Positions 11,789 to 22,870 of a DNA stretch of 64,000 nucleotides are shown one piece after another; the first letter of the stretch is position 1; every line of letters begins with the position of its first letter. Location: contig JAFGXQ010000128.1 in assembly GCA_016936575.1 (NCBI GenBank), forward strand, positions 1 through 64,000. Reading direction: 5' to 3'. The notes under the pieces are model-generated. The model saw only the letters and a program-made list of their open reading frames with translations, did not search any database and was not told where the DNA came from. The translations under genes were made by a program, and so were the position numbers. Source of the stretch: Deltaproteobacteria bacterium (GTDB lineage: Bacteria > Myxococcota_A > Polyangia > JAAYKL01).

Positions 11789-13711
11789 ATGAAAACCGCG
11801 TTTCGCAGAATCGGTGTAGGAATATTGGGAATCCTGATTGCGATGTCCATCGGCCTCATCGTTTCCGTGTATGGCGTGGAGTACCCGGTGGAAACCCTGA
11901 CAAACGAAAACTACGGTTCATTGGTTATCATCGATCGAAACGGCATTCCACTGCGCCGCGTGAATGTTCACGGCAACGAACAGTTCTCGCCCCGGCACAG
12001 ATTCGTCAAGCTGAACGAAATCGATTCACAGGTGATTTCAACCCTGCTCGCATCTGAAGACAAAAATTTCTTTCAGCATTCAGGAGTGGATGTTACGGCG
12101 ATTTTGCGCGCCCTGTATCTGAACATCAGAGAGGGCGGTGCACAATACGGCGCATCCACCATTACAATGCAATTGATGCGCATGGTGCACTCGCGGGGCG
12201 AGTCAAGAACCTTCTGGAACAAAATCAAAGAAACCATATTGGCGCTGCGCCTGGAGCGACAGGTCAGCAAATCGTTCATTCTGGAGCAATATCTGAATCG
12301 CGCCTATTTCGGCAATCAGGCATTCGGCATCGAGGCAGCGGCCAGGCGATATTTTGGAAAAAGCGCGTCCGCCCTGAGCACAGCGGAAGCCACCTATCTG
12401 GCGGTGTTGCCGCGGGGCCCCTCGTACTACAACCCGTTCCGGCACCATCAGCGCGTGCTAGCACGCCGCGCGCATATTTTTCAGTTGCTGACGGCCCAGG
12501 GACGACTCAGCACGGCAGAGGCGAAACGCGCCGGCAGCGAGCGCATCTCACCGTCATTTCACCCCTTCGCCTACAAGGCGCCTCATTTCGTGGACTGGGT
12601 ATTGAATTCCATCGATGAACCCACCGCACGTTCCGGAGGGGTCATTACCACAACGCTCGATTCCTATCTGCAGAAAGAAGTCGAACACAGTGTTCGGGAG
12701 CATGTGGCACGGCTTCGCCCCCGGGGTGTGGAACAGGCGGGCGTCGTGGTTCTCGATACGCGTACCGGCAAGGTGCTGGCAATGGTCGGTGCGACCTCCG
12801 GGCAGAAAACCGGCAATAGCGCAGTGAATATCACCACACGCAGACGCCACCCCGGATCGGCCCTGAAACCGTTTGTGTATGCCACAGCGATTGAACTGGG
12901 AGATTCACCCGCGTCTATTGTGATGGACCGCATGGATGTGTCCTCTGAATACAGAGTGACGGGTCGCCCGCCGAAAGAACGCGGCGCGGTATCGTACCGG
13001 GAGGCGCTGGCCGGTTCGTACAATATTGCGGCGATTCACGTGTTGGAAAAAGTAGGTGTGACCCGCGTCATGGAAAAACTTCGCGCCGCCGGCGTATCCG
13101 CGCTGCCGCAGCACTCGGCAGATTACGGGCTTCGTCTGGCGCTGGGAGATACCAAAGTACGGCTGGTGGATTTAGCCGCGGGATATGGTTTTCTGGTACG
13201 GGAAGGAAAAGTGGCGTTGCCGCGAAACATTGAAACGGTTACCGACCCGGACGGGAATGTTCATTCGTTCAGCATGCAGGAACGCACTGTGTTTTCACCG
13301 CAGGCGGCCTGGCTCACCATGGATATGCTGAGCGACCCCGATGCGCGCAGAAAAGTATTCGGAGACGAGCTGCCGGCGGACTTACCTTATCGGGTCACTG
13401 TAAAAACCGGTACGGCGCGGGGGTTTTCCGATACCGTGGCCGTTTTTGCCACCCGGGAATTCGTTGTTGCCGCGTGGACCGGACGTTTTGACGGAAAGCC
13501 CACCAAAGGCGTACTGGGAATGAGCGGCGCCGCCCCATTGGCCCGCGATGCGTTGCTCCTCGCGTCAGACGGAAAAATGCTGACATTGCCCAAAATGCCA
13601 CCGGGCGTGGAGCGCGCCACAATATGCGCCACCACCGGAAAGCCCGCGTCCGTGGATTGCCCAAGAAGAAAATTGGAATATTTTGTGGAAGGCACTGTTC
13701 CCGCCGAATAG
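11789..13711 (+). CDS. pbpC: Penicillin-binding protein 1C
   Basis: 640 residues; a bifunctional peptidoglycan polymerase anchored in the inner membrane by a helix at about residues 9-30. The glycosyltransferase domain has the catalytic Glu90 in SEDKNFFQH and the GASTITMQL motif. The transpeptidase domain has the nucleophile Ser357 (SALK), the SYN triad at 410-412 and KTG at 539-541. The C-terminus stops soon after the transpeptidase domain, so it lacks the roughly 100-residue BiPBP_C extension of Escherichia coli PBP1C. The start at 11789 lies 14 bases after the alpha-2-macroglobulin stop, which supports co-expression; a longer in-frame extension would overlap that gene and is unlikely. Confidence 0.94.
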   Translation: MKTAFRRIGVGILGILIAMSIGLIVSVYGVEYPVETLTNENYGSLVIIDRNGIPLRRVNVHGNEQFSPRHRFVKLNEIDSQVISTLLASEDKNFFQHSGVDVTAILRALYLNIREGGAQYGASTITMQLMRMVHSRGESRTFWNKIKETILALRLERQVSKSFILEQYLNRAYFGNQAFGIEAAARRYFGKSASALSTAEATYLAVLPRGPSYYNPFRHHQRVLARRAHIFQLLTAQGRLSTAEAKRAGSERISPSFHPFAYKAPHFVDWVLNSIDEPTARSGGVITTTLDSYLQKEVEHSVREHVARLRPRGVEQAGVVVLDTRTGKVLAMVGATSGQKTGNSAVNITTRRRHPGSALKPFVYATAIELGDSPASIVMDRMDVSSEYRVTGRPPKERGAVSYREALAGSYNIAAIHVLEKVGVTRVMEKLRAAGVSALPQHSADYGLRLALGDTKVRLVDLAAGYGFLVREGKVALPRNIETVTDPDGNVHSFSMQERTVFSPQAAWLTMDMLSDPDARRKVFGDELPADLPYRVTVKTGTARGFSDTVAVFATREFVVAAWTGRFDGKPTKGVLGMSGAAPLARDALLLASDGKMLTLPKMPPGVERATICATTGKPASVDCPRRKLEYFVEGTVPAE

Positions 13712-16036: not shown

Positions 16037-17119
16037 ATGGCCAAGGAAAAAACCGAACAGTCAGAAAACACTCCTATCCAAGCCGCCGTTGATGCATTGA
16101 CCGGTGCGTTGTACGGAATTGCACAGGGAATGGTTCCGGAATCCATTTCTCTTGGTAAGGGAGAGGGACTTGCGGAACTGGGGGCGGCGTTTGCTGCCGC
16201 CGTTACGTATATCAAGGGTCTGCAAACTGCCAAACCCCTCGAACTGGATGTTCGAACCGAGGCCCAGGCGTTCCACGACCTGCTCATACAGACCGAAGCG
16301 GAAACGGTCAAATTAAGCGACATCACCCGCAGTGTGATGGAGGGCATCGAAGGGGTGGAGGCGGCAGCCAGTATTCTGGATACCACTATACAGGAAGTCA
16401 CCAGCGCCACGTCGCGAACTGGAGAAAACGTCACATCTGTCGCGGTATCCACAGAGGAGATGACCTCCACCGTATCGGAAATCGCGCAAAGTGCCGAACA
16501 GGCGCGCGGGGTTGCCGACAATGCGGTTCGCAGTGTGGAAAGCGCTTCTCAAAAAGTGGATTCCCTGGGCATTGCAGCCAAACAAATCAGCAATGTGACA
16601 GAAACCATCGTGGAAATCGCCGAACAAACCAAACTTCTGGCACTCAACGCCACCATCGAAGCGGCGCGGGCCGGCGAAGCCGGAAAGGGATTTGCCGTTG
16701 TGGCCAACGAAGTGAAGGAGCTGGCGCAGCAAACCAATAGTGCAACATCAGATATTCGTGAAAAAATCAGTGCCATTCAGGAAGCAACCCAGGGAACCAT
16801 CGATGAGATAAACGGGATTACCAAAGTGATTGCCGAAGTGAGCGACTATGTAAGCGCCATTGCGACGGCCACCGAAGAGCAGAGTGTGACAACGCGGGAG
16901 ATTACAGAAATGATTACCAATGCATCCAGTGAAATTAACGACGTAACCAGCGCGGTAAGCGAAACGAGCTCCGCCACGCAACAGATGTCCCTGTTTGTGC
17001 ATGAAGCCAAAACCAGTGCGGAAGGCGTTGTCCCATCGTTGGATGCGTTAAAATCTCTTCACGACAGTATCTCCCATCAAGCCGAAAAACTCCGTGAAAA
17101 ACTCGCCGCACTGCAATAA
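16037..17119 (+). CDS. Soluble methyl-accepting chemotaxis-like protein
   Basis: 360 residues without any transmembrane segment or HAMP domain. The C-terminal 240 or so residues form the MCP signalling coiled coil; the CheA/CheW-contacting hairpin tip is canonical ([18 protein letters not shown], then FAVVA-EVKELA). The N-terminal 90 residues are a small helical region of unknown sensing role. The expected location is the cytoplasm, working with CheA/CheW, although no che genes are in the window. GAGGAT before the ATG supports the start. A role in a non-flagellar pathway such as gliding or pili is possible. Confidence 0.9.
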
Positions 17120-17378: not shown

Positions 17379-18137
17379 CTACTTTCGATTTACGAGCAAT
17401 GAGACAAGACGTTTTATGGGGAGGTCGGAGGAGACGGCGTAAATCATATCGCCGTCTTTGGCCAGGGCCACATTGTAGCCGTTGCGGCGACCGGTCAGAA
17501 TCTGTTTGCCTCTCACAGTAAGCAAATCTCCCCCCTGAATGGCTAATTGATTGGCGGGAAACACCATAAATGTTACCTTTTTGCCGTCCACTCGGTACAC
17601 CATCTGGGCGGCTTGATTTTCCCGGACATTGGATACCCTCGCCCCCTGGAATGTGGCGTTGCGGATACCGGTTCCCAGCGGCCGGACGGGAAAATCGATT
17701 TTCCCCTGAAACCAGGAGGCCGCAGTATTCTGATTGGCATTCTGAATTTCCATGGGAAGCTCCCGAACGTGCCGGTCCACCACATCCTGAACCAGCAGCG
17801 CCACTTCGTCTTTCGGAAGCGTGGTTTGCGGAGTACTATGGCTCCACATCAACAGCATAAACGCTGCCGCGGCGGCGACAGGAGCGGCAACCACCGGCCG
17901 CTGCCACCACACCCGGGGCGAGCCGCTCGAAATCATTTCAATCTGACGCCGCAGATGTTCCGGCGCTGCGGCATTGCCTCGCTTCGCCAGTTCGGTCTTC
18001 ATATCCCGTTTCAGGCATAAAACACCGGCGCATTCTTCACAGGATTCCAGATGAGTCTCAATCTCCAGCATCATGCCGGCTTCCAATTCCCCATCCAGAT
18101 ACGCATCGACAAATTTTTTACTACTGATGCAATTCAT
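17379..18137 (-). CDS. Zinc-binding anti-sigma factor, membrane-anchored, RsrA-like ligand spacing
   Basis: 252 residues. The N-terminal domain carries Cys3, His29, Cys33 and Cys36. The intervals (26, 4 and 3 residues) match the zinc ligands Cys11-His37-Cys41-Cys44 of the redox anti-sigma factor RsrA. Unlike soluble RsrA, a hydrophobic segment at about 81-98 predicts one membrane span, followed by a 150-residue extracytoplasmic domain with the 'W-F-x-G-K-I-D-F-P-V' pattern common in zinc anti-sigma factors. It should hold the ECF sigma factor encoded just upstream, inactive at the membrane. The ATG overlaps the sigma stop by 4 bases, which means translational coupling. Whether thiol oxidation, envelope stress or both release sigma is unknown. 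Confidence 0.88.
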   Translation of the reverse strand: MNCISSKKFVDAYLDGELEAGMMLEIETHLESCEECAGVLCLKRDMKTELAKRGNAAAPEHLRRQIEMISSGSPRVWWQRPVVAAPVAAAAAFMLLMWSHSTPQTTLPKDEVALLVQDVVDRHVRELPMEIQNANQNTAASWFQGKIDFPVRPLGTGIRNATFQGARVSNVRENQAAQMVYRVDGKKVTFMVFPANQLAIQGGDLLTVRGKQILTGRRNGYNVALAKDGDMIYAVSSDLPIKRLVSLLVNRK

Positions 18138-18790
18138 GGTGTCGCCTCCCTTTTGCGACGGAATTCCGAAAGGTCCGTAGTGCTTTGCTGCTCATCACTT
18201 TTATCTCCGACCGACGGTGGTGCGATGACCCCCGCCTCCACGGCGTAATCCACAAGTCCGTGCTGAAGCAGTTTTCGCCCTCGGTGCAATCGAGACATCA
18301 CGGTCCCCATGGGAGTTTCCAGGATTTCCGAAATTTCCTTATACGAAAATCCTTCCACGTCGCTCAGAACCACAACGGTTCTAAAGTCGTCGGGTAATTC
18401 CTCTAAGGCACTATCCAGCTTCTCCTTGAAATACTTCGAAAATACGTGATTCTCAGGATTAGACGCGTATTTTACCGCCTGCTGATTCAGCACCTGGTCG
18501 TACAACGGCTCCACCGCCGCCCGCTCGATATAACGCTGCTCGTGCTTTTTATGCCGGTAGTCGTTAATGAATGTATTTGTCAGAATCCGAAACAGCCATG
18601 CCTTCAGGTTCGTTCCCCATTCAAAATTCTTTTTAAACCGAAAGGCGCGAACAAATGTATCCTGAACCAGCTCCTCCGCCTCCACCTGATTTCGAGTCAT
18701 CTTCAACGCCGATGCGTACAGGCTGTCCAAGTGCTCCATACACGCTCTTTCAAATTGCTGATCTTTTTCTTTTCTTCGACTTGCAAACAT
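18134..18790 (-). CDS. ECF RNA polymerase sigma factor, SigR/ECF12-like
   Basis: 218 residues. Region 2 (about 15-80) contains LVQDTFVRAFR and the hallmark NLKAWLFRILTNTFIN; region 4 (about 130-180) contains DVEGFSYKEIS and TPMGTVMSRLHRGRKLL, the helix-turn-helix that reads the -35 element. These segments closely follow the SigR/SigH-type (ECF12) thiol-stress sigma factors of actinobacteria. It is co-transcribed with, and overlaps by 4 bases, a zinc anti-sigma gene. A GGGAAT-N17-GTTG element lies about 35 bases upstream, which fits autoregulation. It is divergent from grpE-dnaK-dnaJ. About 35 extra residues at the C-terminus are charged and without known role. Confidence 0.92.
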   Translation of the reverse strand: MFASRRKEKDQQFERACMEHLDSLYASALKMTRNQVEAEELVQDTFVRAFRFKKNFEWGTNLKAWLFRILTNTFINDYRHKKHEQRYIERAAVEPLYDQVLNQQAVKYASNPENHVFSKYFKEKLDSALEELPDDFRTVVVLSDVEGFSYKEISEILETPMGTVMSRLHRGRKLLQHGLVDYAVEAGVIAPPSVGDKSDEQQSTTDLSEFRRKREATP

Positions 18791-18824
18791 TTTCTCACCG
18801 TGTACCTGCTCGGTTCATGGGGTT

Positions 18825-18851
18825 CAACCGTGCGGCATCTAATTTATTCCC
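18825..18851 (-). promoter_or_regulatory. SigR-type promoter of the ECF sigma gene
   Basis: On the minus strand, GGGAAT (18851-18846) and GTTG (18828-18825) are separated by 17 bases. The published consensus for SigR/SigH-type ECF sigma factors is GGAAT or GGGAAY, about 16-18 bases, then GTT, so the match is full. It sits about 35 bases before the sigma-factor ATG, the position expected for an autoregulated promoter. Confidence 0.65.
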
Positions 18852-19001: not shown

Positions 19002-19073
19002 GATTATGTAGAGGGACGCTTTTAAGGAGGGCTTATTTTCAAGCCCGTGAATAATATTTCAGGAGTAAAACCA

Positions 19074-19805
19074 TTGAGCGATCAAGACAGAAATAAGCCG
19101 AATGAACCAACACCGGACGCGCCAAACACTTCAGAACAGAACAACAATGAGGAAGTCATTGAAGTGGTTTCCGATAAAACCGGAGATGACGCTGAACAGG
19201 AAATACTCGACCCGGAACAACAAATCGACAAACTGACGCAGGACCTGGCGACGGAGCGGGAAAAGTACCTTCGCGCACTGGCCGACATGGACAATCTGCG
19301 CAAACGCTGTCGGCGCGATATTGAAGAAGCGCGAATCAATGGGCGAGCAAACGTTCTGGAGGAACTGTTGCCGGCGCTCGACAGTATAGACATGGCGCTG
19401 AAATCCATTGAGCCGACAGAAGCCAACCAGGCGGTATTCGACGGAATGGTTATGGTGCGAAAGCAGTTCATGGCGTCAATGGACCGGTTCGAGCTGAAAG
19501 CGGTTCAGTCCAAAGGACAGAAGTTCGACCCCGCTGTCCACGAAGCGGTCTCCTATATTCCTTCGCCTGATCACGAAGCGGGTGAAATAATCGATGAGAT
19601 GCGGGCAGGATATATGCTGGGAACTCGGTTGCTGCGCGCTGCCATGGTAGTGGTTTCATCCGGGCAGCCGGCCGACACGGCCGCTACTGAAATGAATGCG
19701 TCTTCAGATGATGCGTCTTCAACAGATGACGCGTCTACGGATGCCGGAACTCAAGATGACGAAACCGGCAACAAAGAGGATGCGGCTACCTCCGAGGATA
19801 GCTGA
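19074..19805 (+). CDS. grpE: Nucleotide exchange factor GrpE
   Basis: 243 residues with the TTG start at 19074. GrpE dimers release ADP from DnaK. A coiled-coil segment ([18 protein letters not shown], about residues 60-85) and the C-terminal beta domain (LPALDSID…, G[11 protein letters not shown]) are recognisable. TTG is chosen because AGGAG ends eight bases before it, whereas a GTG nine codons earlier has its AAGGAGGG too far upstream. A weak start may limit GrpE relative to DnaK. The acidic N-terminus and an unusual Asp/Ser/Thr-rich C-terminal tail (last 35 or so residues) are probably disordered. dnaK follows after 20 bases. Confidence 0.93.
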
Positions 19806-19825
19806 TTTACGAAGGGGGACAGTGT

Positions 19826-21754
19826 ATGTCTGACGAATGCATAATTGGAATCGACCTGGGAACGACAAACTCGTGTGTGGCGGTAGTGGAAGGTCAAGAT
19901 GCGGTTGTGATTCCGAACGCCGAAGGAAGCCGCACCACACCTTCGATTATCGGTTTCACTCAAAATGGCGAGCGCCTGGTGGGCCATGTGGCCAAACGTC
20001 AGGCCGTAACGAATGCGGAAAATACCATCAACGCCGTGAAACGATTAATGGGACGTCCGTATGAATCTGAGGAATCCGTACGACAGCGGGAAATGTGCCC
20101 GTATAAAATTATCGCACATCAGAACGGTGACGCCTGGGTGGAAGTTCGCGGAAAAAAAATGAGTCCCCCAGAATTGTCATCCATGATTCTCACCGAAATG
20201 CGTTCCGTGGCCGAATCGTATCTCGGAAAAAAAGTGACCCAGGCGGTGGTGACGGTACCCGCGTATTTCAATGACGCGCAACGTCAGGCCACCAAAGATG
20301 CCGGAAAAATTGCGGGACTGGATGTACAGCGAATCATCAACGAGCCGACGGCTGCCGCGCTGGCATACGGCGTTGACTTAGAACCCGGCGCCAAGAGACG
20401 ACTGGCGGTATATGACCTGGGGGGCGGCACATTCGACATATCCATTCTCGAGATGGAAGACGGTGTCTTTTCAGTGAAAAGTACCAGCGGTGACACCTTC
20501 CTGGGCGGAGAAGACTTTGACCAGAAAATCATTCAATACCTGGCCGCAAAATTCAAACAGGAAAACAACTACGATCTGCTGAACGACAACATGGCGTTGC
20601 AACGGTTGAAAGAAGCCGCGGAGCGGGCCAAACATGAACTGTCGTCGAGCCTGGAAACCGAAATCAACCTTCCGTTCATTGCTGCGGACGCATCCGGTCC
20701 CAAGCACCTGGTTCATACCATGGAACGGGGTGAGCTCGAAGATTTGGTTGAAGACTTAATCATCCGCTCATTCGGCCCCTGCGAGCAGGCGCTGACCGAT
20801 GCCGGTTTGAATAAGTCAGACCTGGACGACATTCTGCTGGTGGGTGGCATGACCCGAATGCCGCTGGTGCAGAAGCTGGTGGAAGAATTCTTCGAGCAAC
20901 CGCCCCTCAGAGGTGTGAACCCCGATGAAGTGGTCGCAGTGGGTGCGGCGGTGCAAGGTGCCGTGCTGAGCGGACAGGTTGATGAAGTGCTGCTGCTCGA
21001 CGTGACACCGCTAAGTCTTGGTGTGGAAACCGGCGGCGGTGTGTTCACCAAACTCATTGAACGCAATACAACGGTTCCCACTCAGAAACGACAGGTATTC
21101 ACCACCAGTGTCGACAATCAGAATTTTGTTCCCATTCACGTTCTCCAGGGAGAACGTCAGATGGCCGCCGATAACACCACCTTGGCCAAGTTCGAATTGA
21201 CCGGCATTCCGCCGGCACCCAGAGGGGTTCCACAGGTCCAGGTAACCTTTGATATTGATTCCAACGGTATCGTATCTGTCTCTGCGCGAGACCTCGGTAC
21301 CGGCCGGGAACAGGTGGTACGGGTTACAGCAGCGGGCGGTCTGAAGGACGGCGACATCGAGCGCATCATTGAAGAAGCCGAGTTGCAGCGACGGGAAGAC
21401 GCGGCGAGAAAAGAGGTCGCGGAAGCCAAAGTACAAGCCGAGTCACTGATTTACACCTCCCAGAGAGCCGTCGATGAATACGGAGAAGCCGTTTCAAAAG
21501 AAGATTTAGACATCATTCGCGCAGATATTGCGGAGTTACAGATGAGAATTCAAGGAAATGACATCCATGCGATCAACGAAGCGCGCATGCGCCTGGAGGA
21601 ATCTGCATATCGCATTGCAGAAGCCATGTATGCCGGCGTATCTCCGACAACAAATATGGCGATGAGTGAACCTTCAAACGAAATACCAAACGACGCGCTG
21701 TCCGATGCCATCGCAGATACACTTGGGGGCTCCAACGACCCTGGCGAGGCGTAA
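19826..21754 (+). CDS. dnaK: Chaperone DnaK (Hsp70)
   Basis: 642 residues, full length. The ATPase domain starts with [14 protein letters not shown] and contains the phosphate loop [13 protein letters not shown]; the substrate-binding domain contains [19 protein letters not shown]. It refolds proteins in the cytoplasm with DnaJ and GrpE. The helical lid is present, and the C-terminus is Asn/Asp/Ser-rich rather than ending in the classic EEV-type acidic tail. A GGGGGAC site precedes the ATG. It lies in the grpE-dnaK-dnaJ operon, six bases before dnaJ. Confidence 0.97.
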
Positions 21755-21760
21755 TTTTTC

Positions 21761-22870
21761 ATGCCAGAAAAGCGAGATTACTACGAAGTGCTCGGTGTCG
21801 AAAAAAACGCCGATGCACAGGAACTGAAAAAGGCGTACCGCAAACTGGCGATGAAGTATCATCCCGACCAGAACCCTGATGATGATCAGGCTGCGGAAAA
21901 ATTTAAAGAATTGACCGAAGCGTACAAGGTTCTTTCAAACGAGGAATCCCGGGCGCGGTACGATAGATTCGGCCACCAGGGTGCGTCTTCTGGAAACGGT
22001 TATCCAGGTATGGACTTCGACATGGATTTGGGGTCGATGACCGATTTCTTTGAATCGATTTTCGGATCCATGTTTGGCGGCGCACAGAGACGTCGGACAA
22101 GACGGGGAAGTGACCTGCAGTACGATTTGACAGTCACCCTGGAGCAGGTGGTATCCGGCGCGGATCTGCGTATCACCATTCCTAGAGCAATGCCGTGTGA
22201 TGACTGCGGCGGGAGCGGCGCCCAAAAGGGCACCACGCCCACGCAATGCCCCCGCTGCAACGGCCATGGTCAGGTTCGACTGCAACAGGGCATTTTCGTG
22301 ATGAATTCACCGTGCCCCACCTGCAGCGGCGCGGGAAAAGTAATTCAGGAGCCCTGCCCCCATTGCGACAGCGGTCTGGTTGAAAAAGAAGAAGAATTCA
22401 ACATAACTATTCCTCCGGGCATTGAGGACGGAAAAGTCAAAGTGATTCGCGGTGCCGGAGATCACGGTCGAAATGGAGTTCCTCCCGGAGATCTGAACAT
22501 TCATGTTCAGGTAGCGCGTCACGAAATATTTGAACGCGCCGGAGATGACCTGCTGTGTGAGCGTTCCATCACGTTCCCCCAGGCCGCGTTAGGTGATGAC
22601 ATCGAAATCGAAACCATCGACTCAAAAGTGAAAATGAAAGTGAAACCCGCTACCCGCGCCGGTCAGGTCTATGTGTTGCGCGGCAAAGGCGTGCCTCATT
22701 TTCATGGAAACGGTCGGGGTGACCTGCGAGTCCGCATGGATATAGATGTCCCTGCCAAACTTACCGATGCGCAGGTGGATCTCATCGAAAAACTGGGAAC
22801 AGAGCTGGGAACAGTCGTGCATCAGAAGCGCCATTCTCTGGTAGATAAAGTAAAAAGCCTCTTCGACTGA
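21761..22870 (+). CDS. dnaJ: Chaperone DnaJ (Hsp40)
   Basis: 369 residues. The J domain (about 5-70) has the HPD motif at 34-36 that stimulates DnaK. A Gly/Phe/Met region with G-Y-P-G-M-D-F follows, then a zinc domain from Cys146 with [24 protein letters not shown] and CPHCDSGL; the fourth repeat lacks the usual final Gly-x-Gly. The C-terminal peptide-binding domains are complete, with about 25 extra residues at the end instead of the usual short tail. It is the last gene of the operon and converges on the next gene with 21 bases between stops and no clear terminator. Confidence 0.96.

Follow-up and report, generated by a model that had tools for sequence, protein, structure and literature searches.

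The window analysed here, a stretch of 64,000 nucleotides from an uncultured deltaproteobacterium, carries on its minus strand a gene for an ECF sigma factor of 218 amino acids (18134..18790), followed by a gene for a membrane-anchored zinc anti-sigma factor of 252 amino acids (17379..18137). The two reading frames overlap by 4 bp. Divergent from this pair lies the grpE-dnaK-dnaJ operon (19047..22870, plus strand), identified by profiles and by comparison of the neighbourhood. The divergent arrangement was found in eight host-family genomes, that of the host included, and was not found in the other families examined. Direct control of grpE-dnaK-dnaJ by the sigma factor was rejected, since neither a promoter motif of the type described below, before grpE or dnaK, nor a CIRCE element was detected in eight genomes; any heat-shock coupling would run through rpoH. 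The anti-sigma gene is adjoined by a gene (16037-17119) for an MCPsignal-domain protein of the methyl-accepting type (360 amino acids, no obvious membrane span), which is kept in G002, a genome of the same genus that also carries the sigma/anti-sigma locus.

The SigR/SigH family is known for the control of thiol stress in actinobacteria, where its members are paired with soluble, thiol-sensing anti-sigma factors. The sigma factor of the window was assigned to this lineage (ECF12-like) from its reading frame, profiles, relatives of solved structure and a phylogenetic tree. TIGR02947 (SigH_actino) was the top profile with 197.2 bits, the next ECF model giving 125 bits, although the curated cut-off of TIGR02947 is higher, at 251.55 bits. 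The nearest solved relatives were the SigH structures of M. tuberculosis (E 5e-43), in agreement with an earlier sequence-only reading of the locus, which had likened the protein to SigR and ECF12. A sigma factor of Acidimicrobiaceae (actinobacteria), with a short frame for an RsrA-like product of 90 residues beside it, showed 50% identity to the window sigma factor and clustered in the tree with the deltaproteobacterial orthologues (support 99/99). The host genome contains at least 15 ECF sigma genes, whose products, the window sigma factor aside, do not exceed 37% identity to it over the matched part; in the same tree, eight of nine of these fell outside the orthologue clade, the remaining one being a long-branch paralogue inside it. 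Judged from these comparisons, the sigma factor is by descent nearest to SigR/SigH. An ECF group number for its clade may already exist.

The cytoplasmic domain of the anti-sigma factor (residues 1-71; 17925..18137, minus strand) was delimited by profile, conservation and model. It matches the zf-HC2 profile (5e-8), and the top NCBIfam model for the whole protein is that of RsrA, TIGR03988 (35.5 bits, E 7.7e-9, below the cut-off of 62.5). The predicted zinc ligands are Cys3 (18129-18131), His29 (18051-18053), Cys33 (18039-18041) and Cys36 (18030-18032), all on the minus strand. Alignment settled their spacing as 26-4-3, identical to that of the RsrA ligands C11/H37/C41/C44 (PMC4960319), as had been proposed from the letters of the sequence. 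Conservation of the four residues also held up across the class: His29, Cys33 and Cys36 are kept in all 28 orthologues aligned, and Cys3 in all 27 rows with a residue at that position. In the AlphaFold2 model the N-terminal domain is helical and is joined through a membrane helix to an outer domain that is compact and all-beta, in line with the membrane span and added outer domain of the sequence-only reading. The helix, also predicted from hydrophobicity, spans about residues 81-99 (17841..17897, minus strand), its start at residue 81 being that of the best 19-residue window.

This hydrophobic helix, followed by a domain of 149 amino acids, separates the protein from soluble RsrA. Its other features, namely the Hx3Cx2C motif, the helical domain, at least one membrane helix and a gene next to that of an ECF sigma factor, are those of the membrane class I anti-sigma factors. 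The zinc site had been taken as a peculiarity on a membrane anti-sigma factor, but it is no oddity there: RsiW and RslA are precedents, and among class I anti-sigma factors of the membrane type about 48% carry the zinc motif (PMC7406223). The 26-4-3 or a near-identical spacing is common to other CHCC zinc anti-sigma domains. The pair was not filed under TIGR02947 or TIGR03988, because both scores lie below the curated cut-offs, the anti-sigma factor is not of the soluble type and the thioredoxin targets are absent (see below).

The outer, presumably periplasmic, domain (residues 104-252; 17382..17828, minus strand) was modelled with a pLDDT of 89.5. Its residues P128, G165, R167, Y181 and Y233 are invariant across the class, and it is devoid of cysteine throughout the host family. 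In the fold search with Foldseek, the nearest structures were TM1622 and RseB/MucB, with probabilities of 0.99-1.00, E values of only 0.002-0.05 (0.0034-0.053 for RseB/MucB) and query-normalised TM scores of 0.40-0.48; RseB or MucB accounted for 10 of the 11 fold matches with a probability of at least 0.99. Sequence and profile searches of the domain against PDB and Pfam gave no usable match and no support for RseB homology. The model thus suggests an RseB/MucB-like fold and not membership of that family, since the sequence profiles show no link.

The sigma gene is preceded by a promoter, GGGAATAAATTAGATGCCGCACGGTTG, that is located at 18825..18851 (minus strand) and can be written as GGGAATAA-N15-GTTG. 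It reads GGGAAT-N17-GTTG, exactly as noted in the sequence-only reading, and agrees with the SigH consensus of C. glutamicum, GGAAT-N17/18-GTT (PMC10012870). Within 200 bp upstream of the 28 orthologous sigma genes, GGAAT[AG]-N16-18-GTT was present in 24 cases, while each of six wrong spacings was found in 0-1 of 28, indicating that the motif is a conserved feature of the sigma gene. Neither of the two findings that would have told against the sequence-only reading, unconserved ligands or a motif missing before the orthologous sigma genes, was made. A search of the host genome for GGGAAT-N16-18-GTTG, which had been proposed for listing targets, did return matches, 88 of them in 5.9 Mb, but proved too loose for that purpose; the bare pattern in a single genome is weak evidence. 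A related sequence in the window, GGAATA-N16-GTT at 13675-13699, lies about 107 bp before a ClC channel/CBS gene (13806) and inside the end of the preceding reading frame, and is probably there by chance.

Because the bare pattern is too loose in a single genome, orthology across genomes was used for the prediction of targets. Nine genomes of the host family were scanned without bias for GGAATAA-N15/16-GTT, giving 135 sites, of which about 100 contexts were inspected. More than half of the sites examined (54/101) fell inside reading frames, and certain genes were preceded by a site in more than one genome. For the recurring genes, orthologues were collected from up to 14 genomes and 250 bp upstream of each was read. 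The motif was found before MoxR AAA+ ATPase in 10 of 12 upstream regions, the remaining two carrying the variant GGAAATAA, and before an ABC exporter ATPase in 16 of 20; for signal peptidase I (LepB, 6/13) and rpoH (3/12) it was present in a minority. Together these four genes gave 35 of 57, whereas five controls with wrong spacing gave 2, 6, 7, 11 and 5 of 57; the count of 35 is partly circular since the seed genes came from the motif scan. The motif was also present at orthologues whose genome or exact sequence took no part in the discovery, namely those of MoxR (G003, G004, G010, G011, G012), ABC exporter ATPase (G004, G009, G010) and LepB (G003, G012, G013).

In the host genome, MoxR is followed by DUF58 and vWA (BatA/B-type) genes, and behind the ABC ATPase lies the gene for a permease/auxiliary protein. 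Two paralogous ABC exporter genes with the motif occur in the host family (L285-L304), for example in each of the two copies of G003 and of G012. The rpoH site was located at the same distance of 118-120 bp in three relatives, whereas rpoH of the host itself has only a decayed site, GTGAATAA...GTC. Most host-family genomes encode two RpoH-like sigma factors (L148-L177), with the SigR-type site only at the first and only in three genomes; the second paralogue showed no convincing site except for a GGAAC variant in G006. In E. coli, rpoH is a classic target of RpoE, through rpoH P3 (PMC8103513). An OmpA-domain (Pal-like) lipoprotein together with a CpoB-like TPR protein carried the motif in two genera, and further candidates, seen once or twice each, were DsbA-like and GILT/DsbA-like exported oxidoreductases, CarD and a methyltransferase. 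In the two genera a thioredoxin gene is divergent from the Pal/CpoB-like operon, and the motif (L371, 2194-2219; L372, 1329-1354) faces the Pal-like gene and not the thioredoxin gene. The hallmark targets of SigH/SigR, trxA and trxB, served as a negative control, and the motif was absent from all 51 of their upstream regions (trxA, 0/29; trxB, 0/22).

Based on the predicted regulon and the architecture of the anti-sigma factor, we can also consider the signal to which the pair responds. The sequence-only reading had proposed a combination of thiol-redox and envelope sensing. Its envelope half is strengthened by the predicted regulon and by an outer domain modelled with an RseB/MucB-like fold, while its redox half is weakened by the trxA/trxB result and by the lack of conservation of the flanking residues said to make RsrA redox-sensitive: the equivalents of E39, E40, L45 and E46 are E31, S32, A37 and G38, at positions that vary among the orthologues. 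The zinc motif alone would be no argument for redox sensing, because about half of the membrane class I proteins carry it and because RsiW, a redox-insensitive membrane protein with the ligands C3/H30/C34/C37 (27-4-3), forms a disulfide yet retains its sigma factor (PMC5358783). A redox input is nevertheless possible, though not the best reading, because Cys3, the equivalent of the essential redox cysteine Cys11 of RsrA (PMC4960319), is present in every orthologue covering it, and because RslA, a membrane ZAS protein, is redox-sensitive in vitro (PMC2877774). The hydrophobic positions of the RsrA core are likewise kept, position 13 being aromatic in 24 and position 46 bulky and hydrophobic in all 28 orthologues, and some predicted targets are thiol oxidoreductases. 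On such grounds the CHCC site might sense cytoplasmic disulfide stress, through loss of zinc and a disulfide between Cys3 and Cys33 or Cys36, with the outer domain sensing the envelope and either signal freeing the sigma factor. Given the unconserved flanking determinants, the behaviour of RsiW and thiol targets that seem exported rather than cytoplasmic, we consider such a double input fairly unlikely. Somewhat more doubtful still is its extended form, a single polypeptide joining an RsrA-type thiol/zinc switch to an RseB/MucB-like periplasmic sensor, by which a SigR-lineage sigma factor would integrate disulfide stress with envelope damage and control an envelope/heat-shock regulon including rpoH. 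A purely thiol-redox switch resembling soluble RsrA, in which the membrane anchor would fix the protein in place and take no part in sensing, would fit the SigR-type promoter, the SigH-like sigma factor and the exact RsrA ligand spacing; it is highly improbable, as the strong class-wide conservation of the outer domain would not be needed in a mere anchor, and no thioredoxin targets emerged. The trxA/trxB result and the unconserved flanking residues are evidence against a role in thiol stress, even though a Cys3 kept in every orthologue covering it could equally serve redox sensing.

Another question is whether the regulon belongs to this sigma factor. The motif could be real and yet the regulon be partly that of another ECF paralogue, the pair controlling little beyond itself. 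With so many ECF genes in the host genome, some could share the motif, and in G006 the only site of the form GGGAATAA-N15/16-GTT is that of the sigma gene itself. Within the same genomes, however, the same extended motif (GGAATA and GTT with the same spacer) stands before both the sigma gene and the targets, and the other host ECF sigma factors show only the limited identity given above, so that we regard this explanation as quite improbable.

We therefore favour, as the probable reading, an autoregulated switch of a SigR-lineage sigma factor and a membrane anti-sigma factor that works like sigmaE with RseA or SigW with RsiW, as an envelope/proteostasis regulator in which zinc is mainly structural; the envelope role gains support from the predicted regulon and from the RseB/MucB-like fold. 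At rest, the cytoplasmic zinc-containing helical domain would hold the sigma factor at the membrane, as can be expected from the family. Perception of an envelope signal by the RseB/MucB-like outer domain would cause the anti-sigma factor to be removed, with regulated intramembrane proteolysis of the kind seen in RseA and RsiW as the most likely route. The sigma factor set free would then direct transcription, a step that comparative genomics supports, from GGAATA-N16-17-GTT promoters of its own operon, the MoxR-DUF58-BatA/B operon, the ABC exporter operon and signal peptidase I; rpoH, CarD, Pal/CpoB-like and Dsb-like genes would be added in some relatives. Zinc would be mainly structural, as it is in RsiW.

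Among the known systems, SigR-RsrA of Streptomyces, SigH-RshA of Mycobacterium and Corynebacterium and ECF12 represent the family to which the sigma factor comes nearest in profile and in solved structure, sharing the GGAAT-N17/18-GTT promoter and the CHCC spacing of RsrA. The window pair differs from them in the membrane anchor and outer domain, in the absence of trxA/trxB sites, in scores under both curated cut-offs and in its deltaproteobacterial host. SigW-RsiW of Bacillus subtilis likewise has a membrane CHCC zinc anti-sigma factor with an extracytoplasmic part, and the redox determinants of RsrA are kept in neither; RsiW, however, has its ligands spaced 27-4-3, SigW stands further off as a sigma factor (86 versus 151 bits), and proteolysis was shown for RsiW while it is only supposed for the window protein. 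SigL-RslA of Mycobacterium tuberculosis also includes a membrane-associated zinc anti-sigma factor with HxxxCxxC, one that responds to oxidation in vitro (PMC2877774), but RslA is of the HHCC type (PMC4960319) and SigL is more distant (38 bits). RpoE-RseA-RseB of E. coli and AlgU-MucA-MucB control an envelope/proteostasis regulon including rpoH, similar to the one predicted for the window pair, and the fold modelled for the window outer domain suggests a resemblance to RseB and MucB; RseA is without a zinc site and the sigma lineage differs. RseB and MucB occur as proteins of their own in the periplasm, whereas in the window system the similar fold is predicted within the anti-sigma polypeptide.

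In the literature consulted, the group of anti-sigma factors that goes with ECF12 was placed only in actinobacteria (PMC7406223). What appears to be new, as far as the sequences indicate, is the pairing of a zinc anti-sigma factor of the membrane type with a sigma factor of the SigR lineage and with a predicted regulon for envelope and proteostasis. This suggests that, in a deltaproteobacterial class, the SigR/SigH lineage has been joined to an anti-sigma factor of the membrane type and to a regulon like that of sigmaE. The system offers a testable case of regulatory rewiring, in which the promoter code is the same and the zinc site similar while signal and targets would differ, and, for a lineage that is uncultured, it supplies a concrete candidate regulon and a promoter.
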